DNA of 33,965 bases, taken from the NCBI GenBank assembly GCA_001901525.1, contig MPSY01000006.1:1-33965 (forward strand). The letters run 5' to 3'. The notes beneath the pieces are model-generated. The model worked only from the letters and a program-made list of their open reading frames with translations. It did no database searches and was not told the DNA's origin. This document shows, one piece after another, positions 10,902 through 30,622 of this stretch (within the stretch, counting starts at the first letter, position 1; every line of letters begins with the position of its first letter). The translations under genes and the position numbers were made by a program. The stretch is from Methylococcales bacterium OPU3_GD_OMZ. GTDB lineage: Bacteria > Pseudomonadota > Gammaproteobacteria > Methylococcales > Methylomonadaceae.

Positions 10902-10922
10902 GTCGTCTCTTCGGAACATTTT

Positions 10923-10970
10923 CCCTTATGACGGGCATGTTAATGCTCAGCGTAAGGGTCTCGTTTTTTT
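10923..10970 (+). terminator. Hairpin with T run between yajC and secD (terminator or attenuator)
   Basis: Outer arms CCCTTA (10923-10928) and TAAGGG (10953-10958) enclose an inner stem GGGCAT/ATGCTC (one G-T pair) with a 4-base loop. TCTCG and a run of seven T (10964-10970) follow. This is the layout of an intrinsic terminator, but it lies inside the conserved tgt-yajC-secD-secF unit, so partial termination or mRNA processing is more likely than a full stop. Confidence 0.55.
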
Positions 10971-10998
10971 ATGAATTAAATTTGTTTTTGGAATTACT

Positions 10999-28044: not shown

Positions 28045-28052
28045 TTTTTTAG

Positions 28053-29024
28053 TTAGCAAATAAGGTCTCTGGGGGTTTGACCAGAAAAAAAAGCTTTAAT
28101 ATTATCAATCACCCGAAGCCCCATTGCTCTGCGGGTTTCTTCAGTGGCACTCCCTAAATGCGGAAGTAGCGTCACATTATCAAGCGTTAAGAGCGCTGGG
28201 TCTATTGTGGGCTCATGTTCAAAAACATCTAATCCGGCACCGGCAAACCAGTTATTTTGGAGTGCTTTTACTAATGCTTTTGTGTCAATAAGGGTGCCGC
28301 GGGCGGTATTAATGAGGTGTGCGTTTGGACGCATACGCTTTAATTGTTGTTCGCCGAGTAAGTGATGGTTTTGGGGTGATCCGGGGCAGTGAATGGAAAC
28401 AAAGTCTGCGGCTGCTAATACATCATCGATTGAGCCACAACAGTGTGCTTTAACGGGTTGTGTTAGATTTTCTGGTACCGGACTGGTATTGTAAAAAATA
28501 ATTTTCATATTAAAGCCGAAGTGTGCTTTATAGGCGGTGGCTTGAGCAATTCGCCCAAAACCAATAATACCCAGTGTTTTAGCCGTTACTTTTTGCCCAA
28601 GCATGTCGGTTGGGCTCCAGCCTTGCCATCGTTTTTGGCGGATTAAGCGGTCACCTTCGGCACCGCGGCGAGCGGACATAAGTATTAACAAAATAGCGAT
28701 GTCAGCGGTACAGTCCGTTAAGACATCCGGTGTGTTTGTGACGCAAATGTTTTGTTGTTGTGCGGATTCAATGTCAATATTATTGAAGCCGACACCAAAA
28801 TTCCCAATGATCTTGGTTTGAGTGGGCTTGGTCATTAAAATATCAGCAGTTAATGAGTCAGTAACCGTCGAGAGGATGGCGTCGAAAGTCTTCAGTGCAT
28901 CTTTAAGTTCTGAGGGGGTAAGCGGTTTGTCTTGGTGATTAAATGAGCAGTCAAAATCCTTTGTAAGGATTTTTTCAATATTATCAGGCCATTTACGGGT
29001 GACCAGAACCTTCGGGGGTTGCAT
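28053..29024 (-). CDS. hprA: NAD(P)H-dependent hydroxypyruvate/glyoxylate reductase
   Basis: D-2-hydroxyacid dehydrogenase; by context it reduces hydroxypyruvate to D-glycerate in the serine cycle. The 323-residue protein has the NAD-binding motif GIIGFGRIAQATA (third Gly replaced by Ala), and the catalytic Arg (INTARGTLID), Glu (DVFEHEP) and His (LLPHLGSATEETR) in the usual order. The NFGVGFNNIDI substrate-domain motif is typical of glyoxylate/hydroxypyruvate reductases. It lies downstream of sga, the enzyme that makes its substrate, across a 113-base gap holding three repeat copies. Substrate preference is inferred from this neighbourhood. Confidence 0.88.
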   Translation of the reverse strand: MQPPKVLVTRKWPDNIEKILTKDFDCSFNHQDKPLTPSELKDALKTFDAILSTVTDSLTADILMTKPTQTKIIGNFGVGFNNIDIESAQQQNICVTNTPDVLTDCTADIAILLILMSARRGAEGDRLIRQKRWQGWSPTDMLGQKVTAKTLGIIGFGRIAQATAYKAHFGFNMKIIFYNTSPVPENLTQPVKAHCCGSIDDVLAAADFVSIHCPGSPQNHHLLGEQQLKRMRPNAHLINTARGTLIDTKALVKALQNNWFAGAGLDVFEHEPTIDPALLTLDNVTLLPHLGSATEETRRAMGLRVIDNIKAFFSGQTPRDLIC

Positions 29025-29056
29025 CGTTAATCGCCTGTGGTAAGGTGGATAACGAT

Positions 29057-29123
29057 CAGTTTATCAGAAAATAATGTGCAAAGTAGTGCTGATAAACTGC
29101 AAGACGAGCCTCCAGTTTATCAG
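29057..29123. repeat. Three copies of an 11-bp sequence in alternating orientation between sga and hprA
   Basis: CAGTTTATCAG occurs at 29057-29067, inverted as CTGATAAACTG at 29089-29099, and again direct at 29113-29123, all exact. The middle copy can pair with either neighbour, giving two mutually exclusive hairpins (loops of 21 and 13 bases). No T run follows, so a plain terminator is doubtful; a processing or stability element that sets the sga to hprA ratio is possible. Confidence 0.8.
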
Positions 29124-29137
29124 CGGACAGTAGGTTG

Positions 29138-30304
29138 TTAGCTGGCGGTAGTGCGGTAATATTCGATGGCGGCAGCAACACCACTTCCGGGTGTTATATC
29201 AAAGCCATTATCAAGTAGAGCCATTTCTACACCGGCGATGGCACCGAGCATGGAAACATCATTCATATTGCCCATATGACCAATTCTGAAAACTTTTCCG
29301 GCGACTTCGGTCAGGCCGCCTCCCAGTGATATGTTGTATTTGTGGTAGGCTGTCGCGATGACGTCGCGGGCATCTTTGTTTTCAGGAACGACAACGGCAG
29401 AAACGGTATTTGATTCGAAGCCGGGTTGTGCGCAGAGGGATAGACCCCATGCGGCAATCGCTTTTCGGGTGCCTTCTGCAAGACGGTGGTGGCGGGCAAA
29501 TACGTTTTCCAGTCCTTCTTCCAGTAATAAATCTATCGATTTACGGAGGCCATGTAAGATCGGGGTAGACGGCGTGTACGGCGTGTAACCATCTTTGTTG
29601 GTGTTAATGTGGTCTTTTAGATCTAAGAAGCAGCGCGGGTACGTATTGGTATCACAGGCAGCCATTGCTTTTTGACTGAAGGCAAGGAAAGCACCGCCAG
29701 CAGGTAGCATAAAGCCTTTTTGTGAGCCACTAATCGCTCCGTCAACGGCCCAGTCATCCATTCTGAAATCAAGACTTGCAATTGAGCTGACCCCATCAAC
29801 AAATAATAAGGCCGGATGATTGGCTGCATTCATTGCCAAGCGAACACCACCGATATCAGAGGTGACGCCGGTTGATGTCTCGTTATGGGTGGCTAAAACA
29901 GCCTTAATTTGATGGCCGTTGTCTTCTTTCAGGCGGGTTTCTAAAGCATCAAGCGGGATGCCTTGACCCCACTCAACTTCGTGGCATTCGACTTCAAACC
30001 CTAAGCGATTCGCCATGTCCATCCAAAGGTGAGCGAATTGTCCAAATCGGTAAATAAGAACTTTGTCGCCTGGGTTTAGGGTGTTCGTAAGGGCAATTTC
30101 CCAACCCGCAGTGCCGGTAGCGGGAAAGATGAATGCTTGACCTTGTTCGGTTTTAAAGATTTTCTTGAGGTCTTGCAGCAGTGGCTTAAGGAATTCAGGG
30201 AAAGTCGGTGACCTATGGTCTTCCATATCGACCCGCATGGCATTGCTGACTTCAGTTGGAACGTTTGTAGGACCTGGGATGTAAAGATGATTTCGACCTG
30301 CCAT
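29138..30304 (-). CDS. sga: Serine--glyoxylate aminotransferase
   Basis: PLP class V aminotransferase that converts serine and glyoxylate to hydroxypyruvate and glycine, the hallmark step of the serine cycle. The 388-residue protein begins with GRNHLYIPGPTNVP and contains DMEDHRSP, FPATGTAGWEIALTN, THNETSTGV and the PLP lysine K196 in SGSQKGFMLPAGG, all typical of methylotroph Sga. AGAGG lies six bases before the ATG. It is first in the sga-hprA unit. A 23-bp tandem duplication starts 16 bases upstream of the start codon and so lies in its leader or promoter. Confidence 0.96.
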   Translation of the reverse strand: MAGRNHLYIPGPTNVPTEVSNAMRVDMEDHRSPTFPEFLKPLLQDLKKIFKTEQGQAFIFPATGTAGWEIALTNTLNPGDKVLIYRFGQFAHLWMDMANRLGFEVECHEVEWGQGIPLDALETRLKEDNGHQIKAVLATHNETSTGVTSDIGGVRLAMNAANHPALLFVDGVSSIASLDFRMDDWAVDGAISGSQKGFMLPAGGAFLAFSQKAMAACDTNTYPRCFLDLKDHINTNKDGYTPYTPSTPILHGLRKSIDLLLEEGLENVFARHHRLAEGTRKAIAAWGLSLCAQPGFESNTVSAVVVPENKDARDVIATAYHKYNISLGGGLTEVAGKVFRIGHMGNMNDVSMLGAIAGVEMALLDNGFDITPGSGVAAAIEYYRTTAS

Positions 30305-30320
30305 GGGTTACCTCTTAAAT

Positions 30321-30366
30321 AATATTAGTAGTGTAAAAAATGAAATATTAGTAGTGTAAAAAATGA
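30321..30366. repeat. Perfect 23-bp tandem duplication upstream of sga
   Basis: The unit at 30321-30343 begins AATATTAGTAGTG and ends in a run of six A plus TGA; it is repeated exactly and without spacer at 30344-30366. It is 16-62 bases upstream of the sga start codon. Two full helical turns per unit (about 23 bp) would put protein sites on roughly the same DNA face. Confidence 0.9.
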
Positions 30367-30507
30367 TTTAATCAGCCTTAACTTATCAAATCAATAGAAA
30401 ACCGATTATTTTCCCATATAACTTGCATAACAGCAATGATGATCTGAAATAGTGTTGTTTTTTAAGGCTTAAATGTAATTATTTTTTGCGAATATTAGAG
30501 AGGGGGT

Positions 30508-30582
30508 ATGGCAATAAAGACTGCTGGAATATATAATGATGGGTTGCTTTTAGTTGCTTTGAAGTCTAGGTGGAGTGGCTAA
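30508..30582 (+). CDS. Possible 24-residue leader peptide upstream of mcl
   Basis: An ATG at 30508 opens 24 codons (start MAIKTAGIYNDG, end SRWSG) to a TAA at 30580. The very purine-rich GAGAGGGGG lies directly before it, though at shorter spacing than usual. It matches no family I know. If the promoter-like pair at 30559-30588 is used for mcl, the frame lies upstream of the mcl transcript. It may be chance. Confidence 0.2.
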   Translation: MAIKTAGIYNDGLLLVALKSRWSG

Positions 30583-30588
30583 GATAAT
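30559..30588 (+). promoter_or_regulatory. Candidate sigma-70 promoter for mcl-mtkA-mtkB
   Basis: TTGAAG (30559-30564) and GATAAT (30583-30588) match the -35 and -10 consensus at 4 and 5 of 6 positions with an 18-base spacer. Transcription would begin near 30595 and give a leader of about 28 bases before the mcl ATG. Confidence 0.4.
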
Positions 30589-30622
30589 CTGATTGTAATT
30601 TTTAGAGGTTTGGGTATTTATT

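Follow-up and report, generated by a model that had tools for sequence, protein, structure and literature searches.

The window analysed here, a stretch of 33,965 nucleotides from Methylococcales bacterium OPU3_GD_OMZ, carries on its minus strand two consecutive open reading frames separated by a gap of 113 nt. The upstream gene (29138 to 30304) encodes a class V aminotransferase (Pfam Aminotran_5), by context of the serine-glyoxylate type, and the downstream gene (28053 to 29024) encodes a D-2-hydroxyacid dehydrogenase (Pfam 2-Hacid_dh and 2-Hacid_dh_C), by context a hydroxypyruvate/glyoxylate reductase. The best NCBIfam matches of the two products, BhcA and glyoxylate reductase respectively, scored below the model cut-offs, and the names sga and hprA were therefore taken from the gene context. 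Neighbouring genes encode malate dehydrogenase, a CitE/malyl-CoA-lyase-like protein, the beta subunit of malate-CoA ligase and the alpha subunit of succinate/malate-CoA ligase, and together with sga and hprA they form what we take to be a serine-cycle cluster. The closest named relatives are metagenome-assembled genomes of Methylococcaceae and Methylococcales (hprA identity of 94, 80, 80 and 79%). sga and hprA apparently form a two-gene operon and would be co-transcribed. The malate dehydrogenase gene converges on hprA and ends only 8 bp (28045 to 28052) from its end.

A preliminary description of this DNA had reported three exact 11-bp copies in direct-inverted-direct order between the two genes, and an exact-match search of the window recovered them: CAGTTTATCAG is present at 29057 to 29067 (plus strand), 29089 to 29099 (minus strand) and 29113 to 29123 (plus strand), with all copies inside the sga-hprA gap. 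In the direction of transcription, the copies read CTGATAAACTG, CAGTTTATCAG, CTGATAAACTG. When up to one mismatch was allowed, the 11-mer matched five times in the window against 0.43 matches expected, and none of 100 shuffles reached five. A third exact copy in the linker has an expectation by base composition of about 3e-5, a figure computed after the fact. On paper, the copies allow two mutually exclusive pairings, one with a 12-bp stem and a 13-nt loop, the other with an 11-bp stem and a 21-nt loop.

The first of these pairings, which we call H1, begins 13 nt past the sga stop, and the expectation that the repeat would form a hairpin in the direction of the sga-hprA transcript was borne out by it. 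Its 5' arm (29113 to 29124, minus strand; GCTGATAAACTG in the transcript) contains the copy at 29113 to 29123, and its 3' arm (29088 to 29099, minus strand; CAGTTTATCAGC) contains the copy at 29089 to 29099; the arms were recognised as an inverted repeat (I1) and from folds and pair counts in five genomes. The 12-bp stem is A/T-rich. Folding of the whole gap gave a z score of -3.9, with none of 200 shuffles folding as well, and the energy of H1 was -19.5 kcal/mol including pairs within the loop, or -16.0 kcal/mol for the bare stem. In the computed ensemble, the core of H1 had a probability of 0.999, against 6e-5 for the alternative pairing. A search of the window for Rfam families at gathering score returned none.

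We compared the window with four relatives of the same genus (L036 to L039), giving five sequences in two clades. The length of the sga-hprA gap was 106-113 nt in all five genomes, and H1 was found in each of them. The stem in L036, the nearest relative, is identical to that of the window, and in L037 to L039, where the arms read GTGGATAAAC and GTTTATCCAC, three pairs are changed on both sides and H1 is still formed. Three of five measures of pairing rose above shuffles, indicating that the pairing is kept in these genomes: the fraction of cells paired (96.7%), the number of cells with a two-sided change (6, where shuffles gave 2.4) and the covariation score, each of which was matched by 2 of 500 shuffles. 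The other two did not exceed shuffles, namely the number of pairs with a two-sided change (3 against 2.1; 167 of 500 as high) and the number of further pair types (3 against 3.0; 367 of 500 as high). Six slid versions of the H1 pairing showed zero two-sided changes. Since the five sequences form two clades, the two-sided changes in H1 may represent one event on one branch. Identity between the two clades was 77% in the stretch holding the third copy, 69-75% in the H1 arms, 72% in the stretch around the ribosome site, 52% in the linker and 35% in the leader. The word TGTGGATAA in the H1 arm region of L037 matches on the other strand the DnaA-box word TTATCCACA, possibly by chance.

A second hairpin, H2 (29023 to 29056, minus strand; inverted repeat I3), is predicted over the putative ribosome-binding site and the start of hprA. 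It is imperfect in the window; in L037 (4966 to 4996) it is a perfect 11-bp stem in a register that differs from that of the window. Folding predicted H2 in all five genus genomes over an AGG-like ribosome site (TGG in L038), and the L037-type pairing had 85.5% of cells paired, while 7 of 500 shuffles scored as high. The number of shuffles (of 200) that folded as well as H2 was 0 in the window, L037 and L039, 4 in L038 and 23 in L036. Judged from folding alone, the openness of the hprA site in read-through RNA was 0.00-0.08. Values of 0.1 or less were obtained for all four genus members that could be scored, the fifth having no scorable site word, and for 8 of 51 other loci, which had a median of 0.25. 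H2 is therefore at best a trait of the window's genus, and it was rejected as a family-wide feature.

To place H1 in a wider setting, we turned to the family and the order. An hprA match was obtained in 101 genomes of the family, of which three with the match near a contig end (G090, G131 and G139) were left out; at the level of the order, five matches (G041, G047, G052, G055 and G058) were likewise left out. Among the 107 hprA loci examined, 71 had sga upstream (at least 50% identity) and 36 had no sga match in the stretch examined, which for 77 of the 107 loci extended about 1000 nt or less upstream. Gaps of 40-350 nt were used (63 loci), with 8 of the 71 falling outside this range. A hairpin was called strong when no more than 1 of 50 shuffles equalled the best hairpin of the gap. 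By this measure, strong hairpins were present in 46 of the 63 gaps and in 21 of 25 genera, and in 41 of 58 gaps outside the window's genus; 41 of the 46 begin no further than 30 nt past the sga stop. No unusual hairpin was detected in the remaining 17 gaps, including all three of one genus and five of seven of another. The stem sequences, compared by eye and not from an alignment, differ between most genera. As a control, hprA coding stretches of 60-120 nt (from loci among L006 to L035) were put through the same test, and 1 of 27 passed.

Within the window, 2 of 11 gaps between tandem genes passed the hairpin test, the sga-hprA gap (equalled by one of 50 shuffles in this run) and the gap at 10902 to 10998, and because the latter passes too, gene-end hairpins are not special to sga. 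The convergent gap at 1445 to 1524 also passed. Here, a strong hairpin whose stem contains TTTATCA/TGATAAA lies between convergent genes and is followed by GTTTTTG on the plus strand, and it is possibly a two-way terminator.

H1 is real and conserved, and most likely ordinary in kind. As to its role, our estimate falls a little on the favourable side of even for an intercistronic protective hairpin at the 3' end of the sga mRNA, with the inferred outcome that sga mRNA would exceed hprA mRNA. H1 is a stable stem-loop directly 3' of the upstream gene, as would be expected of such an element. Intercistronic stem-loops that block decay are known from malE-malF and the puf operon. H1 resembles these, and those of the differential-decay operons of E. 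coli, in being a stable stem-loop just past the upstream gene of an apparent operon, in having no T run and in its plausible effect on a two-gene ratio; it differs in being a predicted structure and no REP copy. According to the protective reading, a cut or 3'-to-5' decay would begin in the hprA part of the presumably shared transcript, H1 would stop the exonucleases so that a stable sga segment would remain, and the level of sga mRNA would end above that of hprA mRNA. H2, if it forms over the hprA ribosome site, would reduce hprA further. An effect of H1 on the ratio of the two enzymes is plausible. Weighing against the protective reading are the 17 gaps that failed the hairpin test, the 36 loci with no sga match, the passing gap at 10902 to 10998 and the two pairing measures that did not exceed shuffles.

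H1 may also be compared with papBA-type processing, in which an RNase E site is followed by a protective 5' hairpin. The two are alike in that H1 is followed by a linker predicted to be little structured and then by H2, where the downstream gene begins; however, H2 covers the ribosome site, and the strict RNase E motif (RN|WUU) occurs after H1 in only two of the five genus genomes, which was also counted against the protective reading. In E. coli, operon segments that lie upstream are shielded from decay by RNA structures, and downstream segments by hairpins that follow RNase E cuts (PMC5927463). That study places E. coli protective structures generally within coding regions, and this we likewise counted against a protective reading of H1.

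With the protective reading, the triple repeat becomes a testable and mostly ordinary gene-end hairpin. Among gammaproteobacterial methanotrophs, most of the genera covered have a strong hairpin at the sga-hprA junction, in some cases with a terminator-like site and in others with none, and the junction offers a modest series of natural variants in which to ask what determines the relative expression of two adjacent enzymes. It is this series of hairpins at the same junction, with and without a T run, that is mildly new; the literature matches listed (titles and the beginnings of abstracts) gave no description of a methanotroph hairpin at this place.

The main rival of protection is termination, since the gaps of 9 of the 25 genera hold terminator-like sites. 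Such sites were found in 13 of the 63 gaps against 0.6 expected, the window's genus having none, and at least one of the 13 (in L174) is not the strongest hairpin of its gap. These 13 gaps also mean that the ancestral role could be termination. H1 might accordingly be a partial or Rho-assisted terminator of sga, with read-through into hprA setting the ratio, a reading that we regard as possible but rather unlikely. It shares with intrinsic (Rho-independent) terminators its nature as a gene-end hairpin, and C outnumbers G after H1, by 16 to 8 in the window and by 15 to 11 in L036. This excess, however, is small or absent in L037, L038 and L039 (C/G of 11/12, 13/10 and 13/12), and a scan for terminators gave no site at H1. 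The preliminary description had argued from the missing T run that a plain terminator is not the preferred reading, and this held: no T run directly follows the stem, which is A/T-rich and 12 bp long, in the window or in its four relatives, and H1 was rejected as an intrinsic terminator.

A doubtful alternative is that the gap holds the hprA promoter, with the repeats perhaps serving as operator sites of a regulator. In this proposal, the third copy (29057 to 29067, minus strand; CTGATAAACTG) would be an extended -10 element (TGnTAnACT). The alignment of the genus (A1) favours the idea in so far as the third-copy stretch is as highly conserved between the clades as the H1 arms, and more so than the linker and leader, and TGnTAnACT is kept in all five genomes, the copy itself reading CTGATAGACTG in L036 and CTGCTAAACTA in L037 to L039. 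Genera with terminator-like gaps may, moreover, need a separate hprA promoter. Nevertheless, the best -35 match reaches only 2-3 of 6 positions (spacers of 15-19) and the -10 matches reach 4 of 6. The third copy was not conserved as a partner of H1: its sequence does not track the arm changes of the other clade, and a single regulator reading three equal sites therefore fits poorly. The divergent region upstream of sga (30305 to 30622) likewise holds no match to the 11-mer, even when one mismatch is allowed.

A more elaborate proposal, which we hold to be quite improbable, treats the gap as an insulator with two hairpins. H1 would end the sga message, the third-copy stretch would act as an internal promoter of hprA, and H2 would mask the ribosome site of hprA when the RNA comes from read-through, though not when it starts within the gap; if this were true, hprA output would depend solely on its own promoter. 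The 5' arm of H2 does lie at or just past the -10-like element. For the short transcript, however, folding gave no consistent opening of the site across the genus, with predicted values of 0.00, 0.32, 0.03, 0.15 and 0.01 in the five genomes, and the idea that an internal start frees the hprA ribosome site was unsupported.

The preliminary description had proposed that the repeat forms two exclusive hairpins as a switch. Both hairpins can indeed be drawn, but the switch itself, in which the middle copy would pair with either the first or the third copy in response to ribosomes completing sga or to a ligand, is in our estimate very improbable. What speaks for it is the presence of three exact copies in the window, the third being improbable by base composition, and the finding that the alternative hairpin wins when the first 20 or 25 nt past the stop are held unpaired, though not when only 15 nt are; alternation linked to ribosomes is therefore not impossible on energy alone. 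Against this, the alternative pairing has an energy of only -10.4 kcal/mol, the bare stem included, and H1, which is much the stronger on either count, precedes it in the transcript and dominates the ensemble. The alternative had 72.7% of cells paired and zero two-sided changes, and 5 of its 11 pairs are lost in three of the five genus genomes. An attenuator or riboswitch, in which both pairings would be conserved, was rejected on the same grounds. The third copy occupies a conserved stretch of its own, and its membership in a switch is unlikely.

The further suggestion of a small REP-like element failed. A REP- or MITE-like mobile repeat has an inverted-repeat layout within an intergenic gap in its favour, but is scarcely credible, since a search of the draft genome (2,106,857 bases in 304 contigs) gave a copy count too low for such a family at the level tested, with five exact 11-mers in 2.1 Mb, three of them in the sga-hprA gap and two (L004 and L005) inside long open frames, and since the gap is of similar length throughout the genus, with no empty site among the five members. 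With up to one mismatch, the 11-mer matched 54 times in the genome, against 24 matches for the backwards control. The sga-hprA gaps of four loci of genus g16 (L166, L168, L170 and L175) contain words, ATCCGTG and CGCGTTCATC among them, that look like dispersed repeats of that genus.
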